Shown: positions 13,615 to 28,902 of the stretch, piece after piece
Position numbering within the stretch: position 1 is the stretch's first letter
Layout: the number at the start of each line of letters is the position of its first letter
Assembly (NCBI RefSeq): GCF_024832785.1
Contig: NZ_CP116615.1
Location: forward strand, 4,650,001-4,714,000
Origin: Fontisphaera persica
GTDB taxonomy: Bacteria > Verrucomicrobiota > Verrucomicrobiia > Limisphaerales > Fontisphaeraceae
Direction of reading: 5' to 3'
Length of the DNA stretch: 64,000 nt
Made by a program: the position numbers and the translations under genes
The notes under the pieces: model-generated
What the model was told of the DNA's origin: nothing
What the model saw: only the letters and a program-made list of their open reading frames with translations
Databases searched by the model: none

Positions 13615-16074
13615 CTAACGTTGCGCCTCCAGATATTGCAACAGCCGCAGGGTATCGGCGTCCTGGGGATGGATGGCCAGGGCGCGGCGGGCGGCGGCGC
13701 GGGCATCGGCCAGGCGCCCCATGCGGGCGAAGATGGTGGCGGCGGCATAGGGAATGCGGGCATCAGCAGGCGCGAGGGCCTCCGCGCGGCGCAAGGCCTC
13801 CACGGCTCCGGAAGGATCGCCCAGGGCGTTGCGGGCCAGGCCCAGGTTGTACCAGGCGCGATGATGGTTGGGGTCCAGGTGCACGGCGTGTTCCAACTCG
13901 GTGGCGCAAGCGCGAAGGTCATTGGCTTCATTCAAGGCCAGCCCGAGTTTGTAACGCATCTCGGCATCCTGAGGCGCCAGCCGCACGGCTTCGCGCAGGT
14001 GGCGCACGGCCTCTTGAATGTGGCCGGCCTGGCTGAGGATGACGGCGTATTCATGGCGGATGGCGGGCGAGCGCGGGTCCCATTCCACCGCTTTTTGGAA
14101 GTGGGCCGCGGCCTGCGCGTTATCATTGCGGGCCAGGTGAAAGAGTCCGAGCTGCATCTGGCCGGCGGGTTGATCGGCGTTGAGTTGCAGGGTGTGCAGG
14201 TATTCGCGCATCACCGGAGCGTGGGGGTCAAGCTGGCCCCGCAGGGCGGAGGCGGCCTGAAAGCGCACGGCGCGAATGGGGTCCGCCAACGCTTCCCGGA
14301 GCGCCTTTTCCACCGTCGGCGGCGCCCGGGTTCCGTCGCGGGTCAAACCGCCCAACGCCTGCGCGACGTGGGCGCGCACCAGCTCGTTGGTGTCGGCAAG
14401 CTGGCGCACCAGGGCGGCGGTGACGTCAGGCTCGTGCAGCCAGGGGTCCAACAAGGCAGCGGCGGCCGCGCGCCAGTAGGGGATGGGGTCGCGGGCGAGC
14501 ATTTCCAGCAAGGGCGCGCGGGCGGCCGGGTCGCCGCGGCGGGCGCGGGCGGCGGTCTGGGCGCGCTGGCGGTAGGGACGATTCATTTTATCACCGTACC
14601 ATTTGTCCACCCATTCGATGGCCCAGTCCACGGTGTTGGTGGTGTGGCAGCGGTTGCAGGCGTTGGGGATGCCGAATTGTTTGGTGAGGAGCGGGTCGGG
14701 GATGGTCCAGCCGTGGTCATGGCGCCAATGGCGTTGCATGAAGGGGGTTTGGGGCATGTGGCAATTCACGCATTGTCCGCCCGTTTCCTTGATGTTCTTA
14801 AAATCAGTGGTGTTCAGGTCCACCTCCACCAGCTCGCCATTGGTGTTCACGAAAGGGTTGAACACCTTGTGGAAACTGTGTTTAACGGGGTCAATGATGG
14901 GGGCGTTGGTGTGGGAGCCTTCGTGGCAGCGGGCGCACAACAGATTGCCCGGCAGCAGGGGTTTCATGGTGTGGGGATGGTGGCAGTCGGCGCAGGTGAC
15001 TCCGCCCTGGGCGTGCATGCGGCTGCCGAGGAAGGGGGCAAATTCATAGTCTTCATCGCGAATCTGGCCGTCGGGATAAAAGATGTCGGTCTGGTCCACG
15101 ATTTGGAGCATGAAATGGTCCCAGAAGTTGTCGCCGGGCTTGAAATCGCCAGTGAGGTCCATGCGGCGGGCATGACAAAAGGCGCAGGTATGCAGGGTTT
15201 GCTGGCGGGTGGGTTTGCGCAGGGTGGGGTCGGGGAGGCCGGAGCCTTTGTGTTGGTACTGCCATTGGTTGTGGTCTTTCATGGGGCCGTGGCAGGCTTC
15301 GCAGCCCACGCTCATTTCAGCCATGGTGGTGCGGTAGGCATCGGTGCGGGCGTCGTAATTTTTGCGCAGGCGCGTATTGTGGCAGCCGGCGCACATGCTG
15401 TTCCAGTTCATGCCACGGCCGGACCAGTGGCCCCATTCACCGGGCTGGCGGTCCTCCTGGCCAAAGACATTGAACCATTCATTGGAAACGGGGTCATAGG
15501 AGGCTTCCAAGGTTTGCCAGCGCCCGCCGGGAAAAGGCGTGAGGTATTGGAGCAGGGGGAAGTTGCCAATGACTCGCTCCACGACAAAAGGCCCGTGGTT
15601 GGTGGGGCCGGGGGTGCGCACTTCAAAACGGCCGTTTTCATACCGGACGCCGGTGAATTGGGTGCCATGGTGGAAGGCTCGGGGCGGGTCAAAGGCGGGC
15701 CGGTCTCGTGCGGGGTCCACGGGCCGCTCGGCGAGGGCGTGATTGGAGTGCCGCCAATGCGCATAGGCTTCGGCATGACATTCGCGGCAACTTTCGGAGC
15801 CGCCATATTGGGCAAAGACTTCTTTTTCCGGCGCCAACTGAAAAAAGTTCACCTTGGGGATGTCCTGGTTGGCGGCGGAGGCGGCGGAGGCGGCGGATGG
15901 CGAAGCGGGGGGCTGAGCGGGGGGGGATGGATGCGGAGTTCGCCAATGCCACCAGCAGAGCGCCAAGGCGATGACCGCGAGGAGGCCGGTTCCCCAAGGC
16001 AGCCAACGCCGGCGTGGGGCCGAAGCGTGCCGGGGGTGCCGGGAGGCGCGATGCGGAGCAGCGCTCATGGCCAT
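13615..16074 (-). CDS. Multiheme (8 CxxCH) cytochrome c with HEAT-like and TPR repeats
   Basis: This protein of about 819 residues has an N-terminal basic segment and one transmembrane helix (GTGLLAVIALALCWWHW), then a Pro/Ala linker. The cytochrome region has eight CxxCH motifs: CRECH, CAGCH, CEACH, CAFCH, CADCH, CARCH, CVNCH and CNRCH. After these come HEAT-like repeats (about 470-590) and several TPR units to the end. This architecture is the cytochrome c554-like multiheme/TPR type seen in Planctomycetes and Verrucomicrobia. It is probably anchored in the inner membrane facing the periplasm. The start at 16074 (or ATG 16068) avoids an implausible 63-residue extension. Confidence 0.88.
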   Translation of the reverse strand: MAMSAAPHRASRHPRHASAPRRRWLPWGTGLLAVIALALCWWHWRTPHPSPPAQPPASPSAASAASAANQDIPKVNFFQLAPEKEVFAQYGGSESCRECHAEAYAHWRHSNHALAERPVDPARDRPAFDPPRAFHHGTQFTGVRYENGRFEVRTPGPTNHGPFVVERVIGNFPLLQYLTPFPGGRWQTLEASYDPVSNEWFNVFGQEDRQPGEWGHWSGRGMNWNSMCAGCHNTRLRKNYDARTDAYRTTMAEMSVGCEACHGPMKDHNQWQYQHKGSGLPDPTLRKPTRQQTLHTCAFCHARRMDLTGDFKPGDNFWDHFMLQIVDQTDIFYPDGQIRDEDYEFAPFLGSRMHAQGGVTCADCHHPHTMKPLLPGNLLCARCHEGSHTNAPIIDPVKHSFHKVFNPFVNTNGELVEVDLNTTDFKNIKETGGQCVNCHMPQTPFMQRHWRHDHGWTIPDPLLTKQFGIPNACNRCHTTNTVDWAIEWVDKWYGDKMNRPYRQRAQTAARARRGDPAARAPLLEMLARDPIPYWRAAAAALLDPWLHEPDVTAALVRQLADTNELVRAHVAQALGGLTRDGTRAPPTVEKALREALADPIRAVRFQAASALRGQLDPHAPVMREYLHTLQLNADQPAGQMQLGLFHLARNDNAQAAAHFQKAVEWDPRSPAIRHEYAVILSQAGHIQEAVRHLREAVRLAPQDAEMRYKLGLALNEANDLRACATELEHAVHLDPNHHRAWYNLGLARNALGDPSGAVEALRRAEALAPADARIPYAAATIFARMGRLADARAAARRALAIHPQDADTLRLLQYLEAQR

Positions 16075-16269
16075 GGATGTTAGGACGGGCAATGGGCTGG
16101 TGGCAACGTCAAGATGGGAAGACGGCGGGCAAAAGGGGGCAATGGAGGAGCGAAAAAATGGCCGGAAAGTGCCCCAAGTTTCTCTGCACGGGGGCTTGTA
16201 AAATGTTACATTCAAGTGACGGAAAAATGGCGCAGCCGTAACAGAAGCGGCAAGAAAGGGCACAGGTTT

Positions 16270-16582: not shown

Positions 16583-19528
16583 TTACTGCCCAATACCTTG
16601 CAACCGGTAGAACCTGCCAGGTCCCAGCATGGGCACCACAAACTGCCCCCGGCCCTGCGGGTCAAGCACCAGCGGCTCGCCCACGTTGACCCACGGCTGG
16701 CCAAGCTGCTCCACACTCTGCAATTGATAGCGGCCATTGGGTGACCCGCTCACCCCAATCAGCAGGTTGCCATTCTGTTTGCCCGCAGCCAGGTTCGCAG
16801 CCACAGGAATTACCACCGGCAACACTGCCGGCGGCGTTCCCCCACCAGCGGCACTCAGGATGCCGTAGCGGGTAAGGGCGGACCAGTCACTGGCCCAATT
16901 GATGTCCCCGAAGGCGCCCTTGAAGGCGACCGGCGTATAGAACCCATTATTGGGCGCGGTGCGCGCGCTGGTCAGCGCCGGACTGCCCGCCTGCGGGCGC
17001 GGGTCCAGGCCAAACGCCGGCTGGTTCGTCCGGCTGATCCCCCGCAGCAGGGGATCGGCCACCACGTTGTTGCGGTTGGTGTCGGTGAACAACAACTCTG
17101 CCGCCGCTGTTTCGGCCACCGGCACCGGCACGCCGTTGGTGGCGAAGTTCCACCAGAGGTTGTCGCGGAGGTCCAGCAACCCGTTGGTCAGGTGTGTCGC
17201 CGCCGTGGTGTCAATGCGGATGCCGCGGCCGCCGAATTCGGTGAGGATGCTGTTGTAGATTCGTGGCGCCGCATAGTCGCGGATTTGCAAGCCGCGGTTG
17301 CCGGCGGTGTTGGTGCCCGCCCCGATCCAGGTGGCGTTGTAGATTTCATAGTTGCCAATGGGGCGCTCGTTGCCGGTCACCGCTCCGTTGATTTCCCCGT
17401 TCAACTCGGCGCCGTTGTCCTTGGCGCCGCGCTCCTGGATGGCCAGCCAGAACTGGTTTTTGCCGGTGTAGCCCATGTCGGCGTCGAAGGCGTCGTCGTC
17501 GCAGAAGGCGCTGACGCAGTACTTGGTGTTGACGGTGCCGCCGAAGAACTCGAAGCCGTCGTCGGCAATGGCGTAGGCCTCCACAAATTCGATGACGGTG
17601 CCGCGGCCCACGCCGCAGAGGGAGAGGCCGTTGATTTCCTTGTTGGGGAGGATTTTAACGCCGCCGTGGCGGATGGAGACGTAGCGGAGGACGCCGGAGT
17701 TGTCGTTGGGGTCATTGCCGCCGTAACGGTGGACGTGCTGGCCGTTGATTTGGATGTCGGAGAGGCCTTCATAGACCTCGTATTTGGGGTTGGCGGCGTT
17801 GCCGGCGCTGTCGGCGGCCATGTTGATGGGGGCATGGCCCAAGAGGACGAGGCCGCCCCATTTGCCGCGGTCATAAATGCCCAGGTCGGCCGGGTCGTTC
17901 ACATCGTCCTCTTCCGCCGTGAAGATAATCGGCTGCGAAGGCGAGCCGTTGGCGTAGATTTTGCCGCCCTGGCAAATAACCAGATAGGAGGCGTCATTGG
18001 TGCCGCCGGGACGTCCCTTAATCACTGTGCCCGCCTCAATGGTCAGGGTGGCGTTACTGAGGACATACACGGGACCGCTCAGCAGGTAGACGTTGGTGCG
18101 CGCCCAGAAATGATTGCCCGTGAGAGCGCCGGATATCGTGACCACGTCCAGCGGTTTATCCGGCAGGAAATTATAGGCTGACAAGGCCGTCCAGCCGCCA
18201 ATCCACAGGTCATTGGCGTCAAACGCGCCCTTGTAGGCGACCGGCGTGTAAAACCCGTCATTGGGCGCGGTGCGCGCGCTGGTCAGCGCCGGACTGCCCG
18301 CCTGCGGGCGCGGGTCCAGCCCGCCCGGCACGGTATTGTTGCGAGCCGTGCCGCGCAACATCGGGTTCGCCACCACGTTGTTGCGGTTGGTGTCGGTGAA
18401 CAACAACTCTGCCGCCGCTGTTTCGGCCACCGGCACCGGCACGCCGTTGGTGGCGAAGTTCCACCAGAGGTTGTCGCGGAGGTCCAGCAACCCGTTGGTC
18501 AGGTGTGTCGCCGCCGTGGTGTCAATGCGGATGCCGCGGCCGCCGAATTCGGTGAGGATGCTGTTGTAGATTCGTGGCGCCGCATAGTCGCGGATTTGCA
18601 AGCCGCGGTTGCCGGCGGTGTTGGTGCCCGCCCCGATCCAGGTGGCGTTGTAGATTTCATAGTTGCCAATGGGGCGCTCGTTGCCGGTCACCGCTCCGTT
18701 GATTTCCCCGTTCAACTCGGCGCCGTTGTCCTTGGCGCCGCGCTCCTGGATGGCCAGCCAGAACTGGTTTTTGCCGGTGTAGCCCATGTCGGCGTCGAAG
18801 GCGTCGTCGTCGCAGAAGGCGCTGACGCAGTACTTGGTGTTGACGGTGCCGCCGAAGAACTCGAAGCCGTCGTCGGCAATGGCGTAGGCCTCCACAAATT
18901 CGATGACGGTGCCGCGGCCCACGCCGCAGAGGGAGAGGCCGTTGATTTCCTTGTTGGGGAGGATTTTAACGCCGCCGTGGCGGATGGAGACGTAGCGGAG
19001 GACGCCGGAGTTGTCGTTGGGGTCATTGCCGCCGTAACGGTGGACGTGCTGGCCGTTGATTTGGATGTCGGAGAGGCCTTCATAGACCTCGTATTTGGGG
19101 TTGGCGGCGTTGCCGGCGCTGTCGGCGGCCATGTTGATGGGGGCATGGCCCAAGAGGACGAGGCCGCCCCATTTGCCGCGGTCATAAATGCCCAGGTCGG
19201 CCGGGTCGTTCACATCGTCCTCTTCCGCCGTGAAGATAATCGGCTGGGTCGGCGTGCCGTTGGCGTAAATCTTGCCACCCTGGCAAATGACCAGATACGA
19301 GGCGTCATTGGTGCCGCCCGGCTTGCCTTTGATGACAGTGCCGGCTTCGATGGTCAGGACGGCATTGCTTAGGACGTAAATTGGTCCGTTAAGAAAATAG
19401 GTATTAGTGCGATGCCACGTCACCTGATTGGTGATGGGCTGGGTGACCTGCACATCTGCCGCGGGGAGGGCCAGCGGTAGAAGGGCAGCCGTCAGGAGGG
19501 CCATGCCTTGCTGAATTTTCGTCTTCAT
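16583..19528 (-). CDS. Secreted right-handed beta-helix protein with two near-identical 437-residue repeats
   Basis: This protein of about 981 residues has a signal peptide (MKTKIQQGM, then a Leu/Ala stretch ending ALPAAD). It contains two tandem copies of a 437-residue unit. Each unit begins with LTIEAGTVIKG and KPIIFTAEED-like strands and carries VLRYVSIRHGG, EINGLSLCGVGRGTVIE, DDGFEFFGGTVN and DDDAFDADMGYTGKN, the pattern of a large parallel beta-helix family common in Bacteroidetes and Verrucomicrobia. A separate C-terminal beta domain ends in RFYRLQG. ATG 19528 is chosen over the frame start at 19594. The gene is last in the exbB-exbD-receptor cluster, so it may be a surface or secreted partner of that receptor. 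Confidence 0.85.
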   Translation of the reverse strand: MKTKIQQGMALLTAALLPLALPAADVQVTQPITNQVTWHRTNTYFLNGPIYVLSNAVLTIEAGTVIKGKPGGTNDASYLVICQGGKIYANGTPTQPIIFTAEEDDVNDPADLGIYDRGKWGGLVLLGHAPINMAADSAGNAANPKYEVYEGLSDIQINGQHVHRYGGNDPNDNSGVLRYVSIRHGGVKILPNKEINGLSLCGVGRGTVIEFVEAYAIADDGFEFFGGTVNTKYCVSAFCDDDAFDADMGYTGKNQFWLAIQERGAKDNGAELNGEINGAVTGNERPIGNYEIYNATWIGAGTNTAGNRGLQIRDYAAPRIYNSILTEFGGRGIRIDTTAATHLTNGLLDLRDNLWWNFATNGVPVPVAETAAAELLFTDTNRNNVVANPMLRGTARNNTVPGGLDPRPQAGSPALTSARTAPNDGFYTPVAYKGAFDANDLWIGGWTALSAYNFLPDKPLDVVTISGALTGNHFWARTNVYLLSGPVYVLSNATLTIEAGTVIKGRPGGTNDASYLVICQGGKIYANGSPSQPIIFTAEEDDVNDPADLGIYDRGKWGGLVLLGHAPINMAADSAGNAANPKYEVYEGLSDIQINGQHVHRYGGNDPNDNSGVLRYVSIRHGGVKILPNKEINGLSLCGVGRGTVIEFVEAYAIADDGFEFFGGTVNTKYCVSAFCDDDAFDADMGYTGKNQFWLAIQERGAKDNGAELNGEINGAVTGNERPIGNYEIYNATWIGAGTNTAGNRGLQIRDYAAPRIYNSILTEFGGRGIRIDTTAATHLTNGLLDLRDNLWWNFATNGVPVPVAETAAAELLFTDTNRNNVVADPLLRGISRTNQPAFGLDPRPQAGSPALTSARTAPNNGFYTPVAFKGAFGDINWASDWSALTRYGILSAAGGGTPPAVLPVVIPVAANLAAGKQNGNLLIGVSGSPNGRYQLQSVEQLGQPWVNVGEPLVLDPQGRGQFVVPMLGPGRFYRLQGIGQ
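17058..17935. repeat. Long tandem duplication, downstream copy
   Basis: This segment matches 18369-19246 at an offset of 1311 bases. The translations of the two segments agree in more than one reading frame on both strands, so DNA identity is essentially complete over 878 bases. Sequence diverges immediately outside both ends. Confidence 0.9.
18369..19246. repeat. Long tandem duplication, upstream copy
   Basis: This is the partner of 17058-17935 (offset 1311 bases, 437 codons, in frame). Both lie inside the beta-helix gene. The flanking parts of the 1311-base unit are recognisably homologous but diverged, which suggests an old duplication whose core was later homogenised. Confidence 0.9.
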
Positions 19529-19677: not shown

Positions 19678-22600
19678 TTAGAAATCGTAGGAAAAGGAAA
19701 GGCCCAAGGTCACGCCGCGTTTGTATTTGCCATAATACAGGGCTTCGCTGCCGGTTTTGTCGCCGTAGGTGCGCTCGTAGGGGGGGTCCAGGAGGTTGCG
19801 GGCGGTGAAGCGCACGGTGGCTTTGCGTCCCAATTTCTGGCTGAGGACGAAATCGAGGGTTAGTGGCGGATGTTCATAAACATCTTCCGCCACGGGGCTG
19901 GCCACGATGATGCGCGAGCCGGCGGCGCTGAGGATGAGCGAAGCGCTCGTGCCCAGGCGCGGGTTATCATAGCTCAAGTCGGCGTTGAGGATGTAGGGCG
20001 ACTGGTCGTAGAGCGCGCGGGTGCGTTTGGCGTTGCTGAGGTATTGCTGCTTGTTCTTGAATTCGTATTCAAACAGCTCGGTTTCGGATTGGATGTAGGA
20101 GAAGTTACCGCCGATGCTGAAGTAGCGGAGGTCATGCGCGAGGAAATCCAGGTTTTTGCGTGCCTCCAGCTCGAAGCCCATGACGGTGGCGGTGGGGCGG
20201 TTGATGAAGGTCACGCTGTCGGCCAGGTTGTCAGTGGCAATGCGCTCGATGGCATTTTCCAGTTGTTTGTAGTAAAAGCTCACGCTGTAGATTTCCCCCG
20301 GGCGCGGAAACCACTCCCAGCGGAGGTCGTAATTTTGCGCGAGGCTCATCTGCAGGCTGGGATTGCCATCCAGCAGCACGTCGAGGAGCGGGTCATAACT
20401 GCGGTAGCCGGCCAGCTCGCGGAAGGAGGGGCGCGCGATGGTCTGGCTGTAGTGGAGGCGCAGGCTCATGTTGGTGCGGAGGGAGTAGATGAGGCCGACG
20501 GCGGGGAGCAGGTCGGTTTGCGAAAGATTGCTTTTGTTGTCGCGGCGCCCGGCAATGGCGACGTCGCTGTAGGAGTCCACTTCCATTTCGGTGCTCTCGA
20601 TGCGAGCGCCGCCGACCAGACGCAACCGGCTGCTCACCGGGAAATCGAGCATGGCATAGTAGGCATAGATGCGGTTGGCGGCTTCGTATTTGCTGTCGTA
20701 GGTGGCGAGGTAACGCATCCAGTCGTAGCGGATGCGGCCGGTGGCGAGGTTGGTGGAGGGGGGGCGGATGTAACCGAGGTTGTCGGCGCGCAGGTAATTA
20801 TTCGGGTTGCCGTCAAACCCCATGGTATCGGGATAGTAAATCTGGCGCTCGGTGAAGGTGCGGTCAGAGGCGCTGGCGAACCAGCCGGCCTTGAGGAAGC
20901 CCTCGCGTCCATTGGGCTGCCGAATGGGAAGGGTGAAATCCAGCTTCAAATTGTTGTTCTGCTCGTCCAGGTTGCGCCAATAGCGCGTGGGTTCCTTGGG
21001 GTCGGGAATGCTGGCCAGACCGACGGCAAAGCTGCCGCCATCGGAGCGGTAATTGAAGAAGCGCACATCCGGCTCATATTGGCGGGTGAGCGAAATTCCG
21101 GCCAGCCAGTCCAGTTTCAAATCGGCCAGCGCGGGAAACTTGTCCGCGCCCTTAAGCTGGAAGGTTTGCAAATTGCGCTCGGTGAATTGCAGGCGGTTTT
21201 GGTGGATTTCCGCGCCGGGGTCGCTGGCCTGGGTGCCTTCCTGATAGCGGACGTAATCAACGCCATTTTGATTGTACAAAAAATTAAAGGCCAGCTCGTG
21301 GTCGGGATGCCACTGGCTGGCCAGGCTGACCATGCCGCCCCAGTTCACCACCGATTGCGAAAGGACTTCATCGCTGTCCTTATAGACCTGAAACGTCCCT
21401 CCGCCGCCGGGCGCGTAGCGGCGGGAAATCCCATCCTTGTAAAAACTGTAATCATGTCGGTAGTTCCAGTTGCCGAAGACGCCCAGCGGCCGCCCCAAAA
21501 AGTGGGTGGTATCGCCAAAAGAAAACGCAAAATTGTGATTCCACGGTGGCGCCTCGCCGCGGTCGGGCGCGAATTGCGCCGTGCCTAACAGCTTGGTGTA
21601 GCGGTCCAATGTGTTGGCTTGGGCAATGCGGTCGCGATAAGCTGGATTGGACGGGTTGTTTGGCCCGGTGTTGGCCACCACCACGGGGATTTTTACATTC
21701 AAATCATCGAGGGGCGCAGGCAGCTTGCGGGTGCCGTCGTCCATGCCCAGCCAGTCCAGACTGCCGCCCTTGTAGGAGAGGTATTCTTTGTTGCCGGTGG
21801 TCTGGGTGTTGTAGGAGCCGCCGAGGGAGAAATTGGCGAAGGGGCGGTCGGGAAAGGATTTGCTGATGATGTTGATGCCGCCGCCGGTGAAGGCGCCCTG
21901 CTGGTCCGGGGTGAAGGTTTTGGCCACCACCACGCGGTCAATGACCTGGGCGGGAAACAGGTCGAGCGAGGCCGAGCGGCGGTAGGGGTCGGCGGAGGGG
22001 ATTTCGCCGCCGTTGAAGGTGGTGGTCACGTAGCGGTCGCTGAGGCCGCGGATGACGGCAAATTTGCCTTCCACAATGGTGGCGCCCGAAACTTTGGTGA
22101 CAATGGCGCCGGCATCGGAGGAGCCGGTTTTGGAGATTTGCTCGGTGCCCACCGCTTCTGTGGCGGCTGCCTCTTTGGCGCGCTCCATCAGCAGTTGCTT
22201 GATGGTGGCCCTGGGTGGCGGCGCAAACGAGGGCTTGGGTGGCGGCGGAGGGGGCGGCGCCACGACGAGGCGCGGGGGCGGGTTGCTGGGCGCGGCGGCG
22301 GTGGTGGGGCGGCCGGTGCCGGTGGAGGGGCCTTCGCCCTGCGTGCGGGTGTCGGCAAAAAAAGTGCCGCCGCCCACGGCTTCGGGGGCGTCGGCGGCCA
22401 CGGCGCGGCGGGTGCCGCCGCTGCTGGGGGGCGGAGGCAAGCCTTCATTGATTTTCGGGAGCGGGGCCTGGCGTTGCTGGACTTTGGGCTGGATGGCCTT
22501 GATTTCCTTGACGGGCTTTTCCTGCTTTTCGCCCTGGGCCAGTTTAAGAATGGTTTCCTTCAACGCTTCCAGCCGGCCGGTGGTGTGCATCCAGTACCCC

Positions 22601-22683
22601 ACGCCGGCAATGATGATGGCGTGGAGTACGGCCGAGATAATCAGGCTGGTCCGGTCGCGGCGGGGTTTGCGTGCTTGGGACAT
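19678..22683 (-). CDS. TonB-dependent receptor with N-terminal TonB-like membrane anchor (fusion)
   Basis: This 1001-residue protein begins with a short basic segment. One membrane helix follows, containing S17 and H21 in SAVLHAIIIAGVGYW; the Ser-x-x-x-His spacing is that of the TonB transmembrane helix, where Ser16 and His20 are needed for ExbB/ExbD coupling. Residues about 50-155 form a Lys/Glu then Pro-rich linker (VAPPPPPPPKP). The receptor plug starts near 160 (GATIVEGKFAVIRGLSDRY, TFTPDQQGAFTGGG), then a large beta-barrel ends in LGLSFSYDF with terminal Phe, the usual outer-membrane assembly signal. No TonB C-terminal domain and no obvious TonB box are seen. exbD and exbB lie just upstream on the same strand. 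Confidence 0.88.
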   Translation of the reverse strand: MSQARKPRRDRTSLIISAVLHAIIIAGVGYWMHTTGRLEALKETILKLAQGEKQEKPVKEIKAIQPKVQQRQAPLPKINEGLPPPPSSGGTRRAVAADAPEAVGGGTFFADTRTQGEGPSTGTGRPTTAAAPSNPPPRLVVAPPPPPPPKPSFAPPPRATIKQLLMERAKEAAATEAVGTEQISKTGSSDAGAIVTKVSGATIVEGKFAVIRGLSDRYVTTTFNGGEIPSADPYRRSASLDLFPAQVIDRVVVAKTFTPDQQGAFTGGGINIISKSFPDRPFANFSLGGSYNTQTTGNKEYLSYKGGSLDWLGMDDGTRKLPAPLDDLNVKIPVVVANTGPNNPSNPAYRDRIAQANTLDRYTKLLGTAQFAPDRGEAPPWNHNFAFSFGDTTHFLGRPLGVFGNWNYRHDYSFYKDGISRRYAPGGGGTFQVYKDSDEVLSQSVVNWGGMVSLASQWHPDHELAFNFLYNQNGVDYVRYQEGTQASDPGAEIHQNRLQFTERNLQTFQLKGADKFPALADLKLDWLAGISLTRQYEPDVRFFNYRSDGGSFAVGLASIPDPKEPTRYWRNLDEQNNNLKLDFTLPIRQPNGREGFLKAGWFASASDRTFTERQIYYPDTMGFDGNPNNYLRADNLGYIRPPSTNLATGRIRYDWMRYLATYDSKYEAANRIYAYYAMLDFPVSSRLRLVGGARIESTEMEVDSYSDVAIAGRRDNKSNLSQTDLLPAVGLIYSLRTNMSLRLHYSQTIARPSFRELAGYRSYDPLLDVLLDGNPSLQMSLAQNYDLRWEWFPRPGEIYSVSFYYKQLENAIERIATDNLADSVTFINRPTATVMGFELEARKNLDFLAHDLRYFSIGGNFSYIQSETELFEYEFKNKQQYLSNAKRTRALYDQSPYILNADLSYDNPRLGTSASLILSAAGSRIIVASPVAEDVYEHPPLTLDFVLSQKLGRKATVRFTARNLLDPPYERTYGDKTGSEALYYGKYKRGVTLGLSFSYDF

Positions 22684-26328: not shown

Positions 26329-26392
26329 AAAAAACCATCGCCGGCGGTGGCCAGGCTGGCGAGTTATTCGCGCCCCGTTTTGCTGGCGATGG
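26329..26392 (-). terminator. Terminator-like hairpin overlapping the protease stop region
   Basis: On the minus strand CCATCGCC (26392-26385), inside the last codons of the protease gene, pairs with GGCGATGG (26342-26335). It is followed by six U residues (26334-26329). The loop is long (42 nt) and may fold further. The stem overlaps the coding end, which is unusual but known. Confidence 0.5.
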
Positions 26393-28589
26393 CTTTTTCC
26401 TTGCCCAGTAAATTGATGAGGTCCAGCAAAATGCGACGGGCTTCGTTGAGATGCGGGTCCACGTTGGGCACGGGCTCATCCTTGTCGGCGTCCGCGTCGT
26501 CCTCGCTCACCTCGACCGTGGCGCTGGCGGGGGGCTTGTTGGAAGCTGACGCCAGGAGGTTGGTCACCGCCATTGGCGGAGGCAGGCCGGGCTGGTCGGC
26601 CAATTTGAGGGTTAATTCGTACACTTTGTAATCGGGAGCCGGACGGGCCTTGAGTTCTTTTTTGCGGGCGGCGTTCCGTGCTTCCTGGTCGGCGCGCTCC
26701 TTGAGCCGTTCCGCTTCGTTCAGGGATACGGTTTTATCCTGTTTGAGCTTGAGGAAGCGGTCGGATTCCTGGCGAATCCAAACGAAGTCGGGGTCTTTGG
26801 CGGTGCGCTCCTCGCTGCGGCGGCGCAACTCGGTGAGGTAGGGGCTGACCAGGTTCACGGGGTCAAACTTGGCGGGGGGGATGGTGTCCCAGGACATGGC
26901 GCCAGGGATGGATGCCTCGCCCACTTCGGCGTGATTATTGACCGAGGGCAGAATGATGTCGGGGATGATGCCCTTGAGCTGGGTGGAGGAGCCGCTGGCG
27001 CGATAGAACTTGCGGATGGTGAATTTGAGCGCGCCGAGCGAATTGGTGGTGCGGGCGAAGCGGTTCAGCTCCTGCACGGTTTGGACGGTCCCCTTGCCGT
27101 GGGTGGAGGAATCGCCCACCACCACGGCGCGCCCATAATCTTGCAGAGCGCCGGCAAAAATCTCCGAGGCGGAGGCGCTGAAGCGGCTGGTCAGGATGAC
27201 CAGGGGACCGTCGTAGGCGACGGCGGGGTCGGTATCCTTGTCCACGGTGATGGTGCCGTCGGGGTCTTTAACCTGGACGACAGGGCCCTCCTTGATGAAG
27301 AGGCCGGTGAGGTTGATGGCTTCTTCCAAGGAGCCGCCTCCATTGCGGCGCAAATCCATGATGACGCCGGCGACTTTTTCCTGGGTTAATTTTTTGAGCA
27401 GCTTGGCGACGTCGGAGGTGGTGCTTTTGTGGCCGGCGGAACGGTCGGTCATGTCGGCATAGAAGGAGGGCAGGTCAATGACGCCCACGCGGATGCTGGA
27501 CTGGCCGTTGGCGGCGGGCAGCTCGAAGATTTTGGCCTTGGCTTCGGCGTCCTCCAGCTTGATTTCCTTGCGGACGAGGGTGACTTCTTTGCGGGCGGAG
27601 CTGTCGGAGGTGTTGGCGGGAAGGATTACCAGGCGGACGACGGTATCCTTGGGGCCGCGAATCATCTCGACGACCTTGTTAAGTTTCATGTCCACGACGT
27701 CCACAAAGTCATTGGTGCCCTGGGCCACCATGACGATGCGGTCCTTGGGCTTGATTTGGCCGGAGCGCTCCGCCGGCCCGCCGGGGCTGAGGGATTGGAT
27801 GGTGCAATAACCATCCTCCATGCTGAGCACGGCGCCGATGCCAAAGAGCGCCAGCTTCATGTTAATGTTAAAGTTTTCCAGGGTGGACTTGCTCATGTAT
27901 TCGGAGTGCGGGTCATAGACATGAGCCAGGGAGGAGAGGTAAATCTGCAAGACTTCCTGGGTTTCCAGTTCGCTCAAGGTACGCACCTGCCGGGCGTAGC
28001 GGCGCAGGATGGTTTTCTGGATTTCTTCGGGTGATTTTTTGGCAAGCTTTTCATTCAAATACTCCCACCGCAGGCGGGTGCGCCACAGGGCCTGGGCTTC
28101 CTGCATGTCCTTGGGGCGTTCGGCTTCGCGGCGGTTGGGGTTGAAGCGTTCCTGGGTGTCAAAAACAAACTTTTCGGTGGCCAGCAGGTTGGTTACATAG
28201 AGCGCCTGCTGCACGACGCGGTCCAGAAACCGCGCATAGATGATTTCCGCCGGCATGGAATCGCCCAGCACCTTGGTCAGGTGGTGCAGGGTGCGGCGGT
28301 ATTTGGAGAATTCCTCGACGTCGGATTGGAGGAACAACATGCGCTGGGGGTCCAGGGCGTCGAGGTAGCGGTCGAGGAATTTGGCGGCGATTTCCTGGTC
28401 GAAGGGTTTTTGGGCGTAGTGCATCCGCTCCAGGAGGGTGGCGGTGAGCCGGCAAATGAGCCGGTCATCCGGGCCGGGCAAACGCGGCACGTGATTGGTC
28501 TCGGCTTGTCCTAAAACCGAGAGGTCATCGGCAGCCCGGAGGGGACATACCGCCCATAGGAGGCATAACGCCAGTAAGAAACGCTTCAT
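26364..28589 (-). CDS. Carboxy-terminal (tail-specific) processing protease, S41 family
   Basis: This 741-residue protein of the long Prc type has a signal peptide (KRFLLALCLLWAVCPLRAAD), then an N-terminal helical domain. A PDZ domain at about residues 240-320 includes IGAVLSMEDGYCTIQSLSPGGPAE. The protease domain has the catalytic Ser in SRFSASASEIFAGALQ and the Lys in STHGKGTVQ, and a helical C-terminal domain follows. It degrades or trims periplasmic proteins from their C-termini. ATG 28589 is used; TTG two codons upstream is the alternative. A possible promoter lies at 28639-28668. Confidence 0.93.
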   Translation of the reverse strand: MKRFLLALCLLWAVCPLRAADDLSVLGQAETNHVPRLPGPDDRLICRLTATLLERMHYAQKPFDQEIAAKFLDRYLDALDPQRMLFLQSDVEEFSKYRRTLHHLTKVLGDSMPAEIIYARFLDRVVQQALYVTNLLATEKFVFDTQERFNPNRREAERPKDMQEAQALWRTRLRWEYLNEKLAKKSPEEIQKTILRRYARQVRTLSELETQEVLQIYLSSLAHVYDPHSEYMSKSTLENFNINMKLALFGIGAVLSMEDGYCTIQSLSPGGPAERSGQIKPKDRIVMVAQGTNDFVDVVDMKLNKVVEMIRGPKDTVVRLVILPANTSDSSARKEVTLVRKEIKLEDAEAKAKIFELPAANGQSSIRVGVIDLPSFYADMTDRSAGHKSTTSDVAKLLKKLTQEKVAGVIMDLRRNGGGSLEEAINLTGLFIKEGPVVQVKDPDGTITVDKDTDPAVAYDGPLVILTSRFSASASEIFAGALQDYGRAVVVGDSSTHGKGTVQTVQELNRFARTTNSLGALKFTIRKFYRASGSSTQLKGIIPDIILPSVNNHAEVGEASIPGAMSWDTIPPAKFDPVNLVSPYLTELRRRSEERTAKDPDFVWIRQESDRFLKLKQDKTVSLNEAERLKERADQEARNAARKKELKARPAPDYKVYELTLKLADQPGLPPPMAVTNLLASASNKPPASATVEVSEDDADADKDEPVPNVDPHLNEARRILLDLINLLGKEKAIASKTGRE

Positions 28590-28902
28590 GCTCAAACTTC
28601 AGCCTGCCCCGGGCCTCATGGCGGGGGCAGCGCGCTCTAATTTACATGCTATTTATCACAAATGCCAAAAGATTGTCTTGCGTAAAGTGCCGGAAAGAAC
28701 GCCCTCCTCCATCGCCAGGGGAGTGAAGGGGAGCGGCTGGCGGACCTGCCCGGAACCATGCCTGGCCGATACGGGCAGGGATAGCGATTGGGAGCAGTTG
28801 AGCGAGCGCAAGCTGAGCCTCAGGCGGAGAAGTGGTTCTTCCAACCTGTTGGTGGGCGGACAGCCGCTTTGGCTCAGGTGTCCAAGGCTGGCGGTTGAGG
28901 GC
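28590..28902. other. Intergenic region upstream of the protease gene
   Basis: No gene is seen. It holds the protease promoter candidate; the remainder is GC-rich and without visible motifs up to the end of the Ig/BNR gene. Confidence 0.4.
28639..28668 (-). promoter_or_regulatory. Sigma-70-type promoter candidate for the protease gene
   Basis: On the minus strand TTGGCA (28668-28663) is separated by 18 bases from TAAATT (28644-28639), about 50 bases before the start codon. The surrounding block is the only AT-rich part of this gap. Confidence 0.45.

Follow-up and report, generated by a model that had tools for sequence, protein, structure and literature searches.

In the canonical Ton system of the E. 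coli type, ExbB, ExbD and TonB serve a separate TonB-dependent transporter (TBDT). Here we describe a locus in a 64,000-nucleotide stretch of the Fontisphaera persica genome (contig NZ_CP116615.1, positions 4,650,001 to 4,714,000; hereafter the window), where one gene joins a TonB-type anchor and linker to a TBDT-type receptor (Table 1). The locus resembles the canonical system in its motor family, its S-x3-H anchor helix, its Pro-rich linker and its plug-in-barrel fold, but differs in that anchor, linker and receptor form one chain, so that one motor is tied to one receptor, and in that the fused proteins are without the TonB C-terminal domain, the TonB-box motif and the CarboxypepD domain. 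We regard it as a variant of the Ton machinery, in which a TBDT homologue lacking a recognisable TonB box is fused to a TonB lacking its C-terminal domain.

Three other described systems come close in particular respects. The TonB2/TtpC-type operon, known as TonB2 in Vibrio (PMC6957404), is found beside the nearest unfused relatives of our gene, where it likewise puts a dedicated motor directly before a receptor of this family; it consists of DUF3450, TtpC-like, ExbB, ExbD, separate TonB and TPR genes, compared with exbB, exbD and the fused gene at the fused loci. Inner-membrane-tethered vWA force transducers likewise carry a different end domain on a TonB/TolA-type anchor helix with a conserved His; that end is a periplasmic vWA domain and not an outer-membrane barrel, and the accessible text mentions no receptor fusion (PMC12204202). 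The Myxococcus protein Oar is a TBDT encoded with its own Ton system, but differs in its TonB box, its N-terminal extension and its separate TonB1 (PMC6434023). We found no natural fusion of TonB with a receptor among the matches listed for the open literature of PubMed Central, which excludes most subscription papers and all bioRxiv preprints, nor in the accessible parts of PMC12204202, PMC11658791 and PMC2771747.

The fused gene is a single unbroken frame with an ATG start. The first-pass annotation, made from the letters alone, had read it as a TonB-type helix with S17-x3-H21, a Pro-rich linker, a plug and a barrel ending in Phe, and the frame, Pfam and AlphaFold2 all bear this out. The protein begins with MSQARKPRRDRTSLIISAVLHAIIIAGVGYW, in which S17 and H21 are present, and its sole N-terminal hydrophobic stretch is the anchor helix at residues 12-34. 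Pfam places a Plug domain at residues 171-269 (1.3e-7) and a TonB_dep_Rec barrel at 543-964 (7.8e-29), both over the cut-off, with no match to TonB_C or TonB_2 at E up to 0.1. The nearest NCBIfam subfamily is TIGR01782 (TonB-Xanth-Caul), to which the protein is related without being a member (207.7 bits against a curated cut-off of 310). An AlphaFold2 model built on a 51-sequence alignment has a mean predicted confidence score (pLDDT) of 83.9, with helices at residues 12-34 and 37-50, values below 50 over residues 51-157 and a mostly high-confidence plug and barrel beyond; Foldseek ranks TonB-dependent transporters, PhuR, PfeA and FecA among them, highest in the PDB. The protein thus has the plug and barrel of a TBDT by Pfam, AlphaFold2 and Foldseek, and the N-terminal transmembrane helix with S-x3-H and the Pro-rich linker of a TonB, without the TonB C-terminal domain. 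The linker as measured for composition is 114 amino acids (aa) long, with 23% Pro and 12% Lys plus Glu, and its most hydrophobic 15-mer has a mean of 0.71.

That the gene stands behind its own exbB and exbD, another claim of the first reading, is confirmed by Pfam, which identifies both genes directly upstream on the same strand (39 bases between exbB and exbD, 95 between exbD and the fused gene); beyond exbB, the next two upstream frames run on the opposite strand. The spacing of ExbB S36 and W40 equals that of E. coli ExbB Ser34 and Trp38, which are contacted by TonB Ser16 and His20 in cryo-electron microscopy (cryo-EM) structures (PMC12215075). The window's pair therefore has everything looked for in an energiser: the MotA_ExbB and ExbD domains, the transmembrane Asp and the residues of the TonB contact. 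Across the wider set described below, the ExbB S-x3-W motif occurs in 12/12 fused loci whose contig covers the site (the contig of L006 does not) and in 25/25 other covering rows, and the transmembrane Asp of ExbD in 13/13 fused and 24/25 other rows. On the TonB side, the His of the [S/A]-x3-H anchor motif is present in all 13 fused loci, while the Ser position holds Ser in nine and Ala in four. A fixed His with a variable Ser is in keeping with the TonB literature on the Ser16 and His20 contacts.

The arrangement is not confined to one genome. Classification of 108 receptor loci gave 14 fused loci with an intact start (13 distinct, L109 being the same as L006), 89 unfused and five cut short; many unfused rows were left undecided by a first, too strict domain pattern, and Pfam decided those that were scanned. 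The distinct fused loci comprise the window's own gene and 12 homologues. All 13 have directly upstream an exbB (67-100% identical to the window's) and an exbD (54-100%) of one subfamily, with a single exbD per locus within the available stretch. Anchor, linker and receptor thus stay fused beside the same exbBD subfamily in other genomes, as the first reading would have it. The full-length fused proteins match the Pfam Plug in 13/13 cases and the barrel in 12/13; CarboxypepD_reg is found in none of the 13, nor is a TonB C-terminal domain (E up to 0.1 for the window's own protein, up to 0.01 for the other 12). A genome of the same genus contains the same 1001-codon frame at 96% identity and with no change in length. 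Rough ratios of nonsynonymous to synonymous substitution (dN/dS) between these two genomes are 0.06 for the anchor, 0.042 for the linker, 0.006 for the plug and 0.028 for the barrel, with dS near 1 in the last three, and indicate that all four parts are under purifying selection. Linkers of the 13 fused proteins are 101-130 aa long with 15-25% Pro.

Whole-genome searches returned matches in 14/39 relatives and in 31/97 genomes of the order. The fused share in a separate scan of genome contigs means nothing for prevalence, because one of its six search patterns lies inside the anchor and only the best 80 of 327 relatives were taken; the order sample is the better guide. There, seven genomes encode a full-length fused protein (G000, G001, G022, G038, G039, G041 and G083) and 21 an unfused plug-and-barrel relative, each of these 28 having one receptor of the fused or unfused kind (at most eight candidates scored per genome). 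The three genomes with weaker matches hold free TonBs (G010 and G017) or a fragment plus an anchor-like stretch (G095). Leaving aside the named records L024, L027 and L028, whose order is not established, no fusion was seen outside the order in partial samples of the class (93 genomes, 20 matching, full-length only in the window's own genome and that of the same genus) and of the phylum (96 genomes, 18 matching, full-length only in the own genome). One fused locus, L018, comes from a record titled Klebsiella pneumoniae; its receptor and exbBD group with Verrucomicrobiota, and the record is probably a misnamed metagenome bin.

The unfused relatives are built differently before the plug. CarboxypepD_reg precedes it in 79/79 N-termini scanned (Pfam, E up to 0.01), a hydrophobic signal-like stretch occurs in 78/79, and as a group these proteins have a TonB-box-like motif with the profile consensus MEEVEVTA. 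A profile of this motif, trained on 39 unfused proteins, gave scores of 6.2 to 25.4 in 40/40 held-out unfused proteins vs -2.6 to 4.3 in the 13 fused proteins, with no overlap. Among 2600 shuffled fused tails, scores rose to 13.3 at most and the 95% point was 4.6, which no fused protein reaches. By this test the motif is absent before the plug in 13/13 fused proteins; the score of the window's own protein is 0.0, which makes it a TBDT homologue, but none that uses a recognisable TonB box. The expectation that the fused chain would keep neither a TonB box nor a TonB C-terminal domain therefore holds. The first-pass annotation had also named homologues lacking the anchor as a sign against its reading. 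Such homologues do occur (the 79 intact unfused rows), but they carry CarboxypepD_reg in its place together with, as a group, the TonB-box-like motif and signal-like stretch, and they look like the ancestral form and not like evidence of a late translation start.

At L012, one of the nearest unfused relatives, the genes directly before the receptor are by Pfam a DUF3450 protein, which we take to be the counterpart of TtpB2, a MotA/ExbB protein (TtpC-like), ExbB, ExbD, a TonB with TonB_C and a TPR protein. This gene set has the make-up of the Vibrio TonB2 system (PMC6957404). Verrucomicrobial loci were told from others by record titles, and 17 unfused ones offer 4.4 kb or more of upstream sequence; with the L012 genes as queries, TtpC, ExbB, ExbD, TonB and TPR were found there in 12 of them, and DUF3450 in 11. 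These 12 loci all belong to the barrel clade that contains the fused rows, the other five lying outside it; a further 31 loci gave none of the six genes save for one distant ExbB-type match. DUF3450, TPR and a separate TonB are absent upstream in 4/4 fused loci with 4.4 kb available, and the TtpC and ExbB matches in these four (29-40% identity) coincide with the subfamily exbB. Judged by gene content, this receptor family in Verrucomicrobiota has dedicated motors in two forms, a six-gene operon or a fused minimal one.

A different set of operons offers a candidate source for the anchor. Searched with the window's ExbB, 88/97 genomes of the order match at E 1e-40. Among 30 loci returned with a close exbB-exbD (exbB 59-75% identical), the next gene is a free TonB in most; the rest include some of the fused loci and a few cases where the contig or stretch stops before a next gene. 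These free TonBs (L104, L105, L108 and others) share with the fused loci the order exbB-exbD-tonB and an alignable anchor and linker, but end in TonB_2, above the cut-off in the three scanned (226-230 aa long); many are then followed by a second exbD, where the fused loci show one in the available stretch. L104, L107, L139, L143 and others thus have the order exbB-exbD-tonB-exbD. In three free TonBs, the alignment with the fused proteins runs through an A-P...F motif directly before the C-terminal domain. This alignment and the TonB_2 matches make the fusion look like a tonB in which plug and barrel took the place of the C-terminal domain. The A-P...F stretch corresponds in part to an island in the otherwise disordered linker with the pattern DAPxAxGxxFFxDTR, partly common to the free TonBs: A99, P100 and F108 are invariant in 16/16 aligned rows and R113 in 13/13 fused proteins.

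Receptor trees were calculated with 97 rows (quick) and 53 rows (careful). Left out of the former were repeats of identical proteins (L109 of L006, and L099, L111, L114, L118, L120 and L121), partial or split matches (L070, L075 and L127) and L102, whose end is cut; 5'-cut rows were additionally removed from the 79-row unfused set, and most non-Verrucomicrobial rows from the 53-row tree. The 15 fused rows are the 13 distinct intact ones and two cut at the 5' end (L016 and L028), which are used only in the receptor trees and in the count of downstream partners. The fused label needs four changes in both trees; branches with the program's star force at least four in the quick tree and at least three in the careful one. 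Constraining the 15 fused rows to one clade lowers the log-likelihood by 137 and is rejected (approximately unbiased (AU) test, p 1.3e-11), so that a single origin with simple descent of whole genes is rejected for the barrels. In a tree of ExbB plus ExbD, on the other hand, the 13 fused loci fall into one group apart from the free-TonB pairs (91/97, under the program's star). L132, which is not known to be fused, sits inside this group, and because it does, no bootstrap tree of 200 has the 13 fused loci alone. L132 (G042, of the genus of the fused genome G083) has a close exbB of the fused-clade type without an exbD in the 785 bases behind it; it may be what is left of a fused system since lost, or the contig may merely end there. 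As the motor and barrel trees disagree, recombination seems to have brought different barrels together with the motor cassette. The simplest account would be one origin of a motor-anchor cassette with later exchange of barrels, though the same donor operon may instead have given rise to fusions several times, or fusions may have reverted; the trees do not tell these apart.

From these comparisons we think it quite probable that the fused gene encodes a dedicated ExbBD-driven transporter with a covalent link in place of TonB-box docking. A TonB-type inner-membrane anchor and periplasmic cable would have replaced the signal peptide, CarboxypepD domain and TonB box of the receptor. The N-terminal helix would export the chain and then remain in the inner membrane, where His21 would dock onto the S-x3-W face of the co-encoded ExbB, while the linker would cross the periplasm and run straight into the start of the plug. 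A polyproline helix spans about 0.3 nm per residue and the periplasm is about 20-25 nm wide; linkers of 101-130 residues would reach 30-40 nm, enough to bridge it. Proton flow through ExbB-ExbD would pull on the linker, and the plug would unfold or move as in ordinary Ton transport, the force passing through a covalent bond and not through a TonB C-terminal domain that holds a TonB box. In BtuB, pulling through TonB on the N-terminal end of the plug unfolds the first part of the plug and opens a channel (PMC5413942); the fused chain has the cable itself in that position. We infer an uncleaved anchor, one chain in both membranes, transmission of force from ExbBD and the direction of import, which we favour without naming a substrate. 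On balance we also lean towards a single polypeptide integral in both membranes, acting as a proton-motor-driven gate without docking, with exbB-exbD-anchor-linker as a plug-and-play module that was joined to receptors of several subclades and stands in for a six-gene TonB2-type operon.

Several observations weigh against this interpretation. When its signal sequence is left uncleaved, E. coli LamB remains tied to the inner membrane, fails to assemble in the outer one and is toxic (PMC4817254), an outcome that the long linker presumably avoids. A permanent link abolishes the known docking step triggered by ligand, and with the motor always attached it would raise a problem of leakage. The D-box, the second contact of TonB with ExbD, is only hinted at and not clearly recognisable in the fused chains: in an alignment by eye it looks plain in free TonBs, that of L108 reading ITVTMVP at this site, whereas the fused chains show weaker patterns (motif from PMC10907165). 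L112 matches the plug but has no Pfam barrel match at E 0.01, although its barrel aligns with the others, and in the fused protein of L018 the late part of the linker contains 15 residues of moderate hydrophobicity (mean 1.91). Finally, the lowest held-out unfused TonB-box score falls within the extreme of the shuffled tails, so that the weakest unfused boxes are not significant individually and the TonB box is shown for the group and not for each protein.

Other explanations account for part of these data. The chain could be made whole and then cut in the periplasm, leaving the anchor as a signal peptide or stub and a free barrel energised by an ordinary TonB. Three TonB_C genes elsewhere in the genome, the toxicity of a tethered barrel in E. 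coli (PMC4817254) and a tail-specific protease gene near the operon speak for such a cut. We nevertheless find it unlikely: no TonB-box motif would remain for a separate TonB, a mere signal peptide would need neither the conserved His, the ExbB contact pair and the linker composition nor the adjoining exbBD, and the fused-protein alignment contains, by eye, no obvious processing motif. Translation from near residue 150, which the first-pass annotation had raised, can be set aside; no export signal would remain, and the anchor and linker are under purifying selection. Mis-assembly, a sequencing error or the loss of a stop codon separating a tonB from a receptor gene has a practically negligible chance of explaining the join, even though most homologues come from metagenome bins by their record titles, given that the join recurs in 13 distinct loci, that the sequence on either side is under purifying selection, that two congeneric frames are identical in length and that the genome is a single contig.

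A fusion that works mechanically could also serve export, with the beta-rich protein encoded next door as cargo. In Myxococcus the secretion of PopC requires a TBDT, Oar, and its Ton system (PMC6434023), and a partner with a secretion-type start adjoins many receptors of the family. The partner was not found downstream of 6/15 fused rows, however, and its homologues in other phyla carry a type IX sorting tail (4/6 scanned), so that in those relatives a different pathway brings it to the surface; a partner that binds ligand there is the simpler account, and export seems distinctly improbable to us. We give still less credence to an anchor that merely tethers the barrel, or signals to ExbBD, without driving transport, the barrel being a passive hold in the outer membrane. 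A permanent link would serve as such a tether, and a permanent pull would raise the leakage problem, but a tether needs neither a plug that is the most constrained part of the protein nor a motor pair kept in 13/13 loci. A dedicated, covalently coupled transporter is thus the reading that we prefer.

If correct, this reading would touch on two open questions of Ton transport, namely the path of force from ExbBD to the receptor and the need for ligand occupancy to recruit TonB. The recruitment step seems to have been removed here while motor and plug were kept, which would make pulling separable from docking. With a fixed 1:1 link, a complete assembly of motor, cable and gate would become amenable to cryo-EM and to measurements of force. 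The system would also be a test case for the assembly of a barrel that is anchored in the inner membrane, a state toxic in E. coli for tethered LamB. The conflict between barrel and motor trees suggests that the Ton energy module is exchangeable as a cassette.

Table 1. Positions in the window of the fused gene, its parts and its neighbours.
Feature	Residues	Position	Strand	Basis
Fused gene: TonB-type anchor, Pro-rich linker, plug, TBDT-type barrel	1001 aa	19678-22683	-	Frame, Pfam, AlphaFold2, Foldseek
Inner-membrane anchor helix with Ser17-x3-His21 (predicted)	12-34	22582-22650	-	AlphaFold2 helix
Second predicted helix, where free TonBs have a D-box-like stretch	37-50	22534-22575	-	AlphaFold2 and alignment by eye; D-box not demonstrated
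Pro/Lys/Glu linker, predicted disordered, presumably periplasmic, without hydrophobic stretch	51-157	22213-22533	-	pLDDT below 50
Conserved linker island GTRRAVAADAPEAVGGGTFFADTRTQ	90-115	22339-22416	-	Aligns in part with the stretch directly before the free-TonB C-terminal domain
Receptor plug domain	about 161-300	21784-22203	-	Pfam Plug 171-269; no TonB-box motif before plug
Outer-membrane barrel, C-terminal Phe	301-1001	19678-21783	-	Pfam 543-964, AlphaFold2, Foldseek
exbD, motor subunit, conserved transmembrane Asp at residue 22	137 aa	22779-23192	-	Pfam ExbD 9.3e-27
exbB, motor subunit	268 aa	23232-24038	-	Pfam MotA_ExbB 3.9e-29; S-x3-W (S36, W40) in first transmembrane helix
Partner gene downstream; start resembling a signal peptide (by eye), beta-rich product of two almost identical halves of ~437 aa		16583-19525	-	AlphaFold2, homologue counts

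The partner gene has homologues behind many receptors of the family, fused and unfused. Both halves of the window's partner gene contain the same overlapping frame of 157 aa (17401-17874 and 18712-19185), and the repeat suggests a recent internal duplication of ~437 codons. With at least 1.5 kb available, a homologue occurs within 6 kb downstream in 46/51 unfused and 2/5 fused loci; at any available length the counts are 72/86 and 9/15. It was not found at L024, L027 and L028 (2.5 to 6 kb available), at L098 and L112 (1.5 kb) or at L035 (0.25 kb). The sorting tails of its relatives, which have no match in the window's own partner, suggest that the partner is probably a surface or extracellular ligand-binding protein. 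Its AlphaFold2 model is beta-rich with a mean pLDDT of 87.1, and Foldseek gave weak PDB matches, mostly to beta-helix proteins (best E 1.9e-5, TM-scores 0.11 and 0.20), too weak for us to claim a substrate from the fold.

Further out, the frame at 13615-16263 (-), close downstream of the partner, is long, has many CxxCH motifs and, by eye, TPR-like repeats, and apparently encodes a multihaem cytochrome. The tail-specific protease gene (S41, TSP_NTD, PDZ, DUF3340) lies at 26364-28595 (-), ~2.3 kb upstream of exbB beyond the two opposite-strand frames. Elsewhere the genome encodes three other plug-bearing receptors, two of them with ordinary-looking signal peptides (by eye), and its three TonB_C genes are of the ordinary kind, two lying within 4 kb of another receptor. 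The fused system thus adds to the normal Ton systems of this genome and does not replace them.

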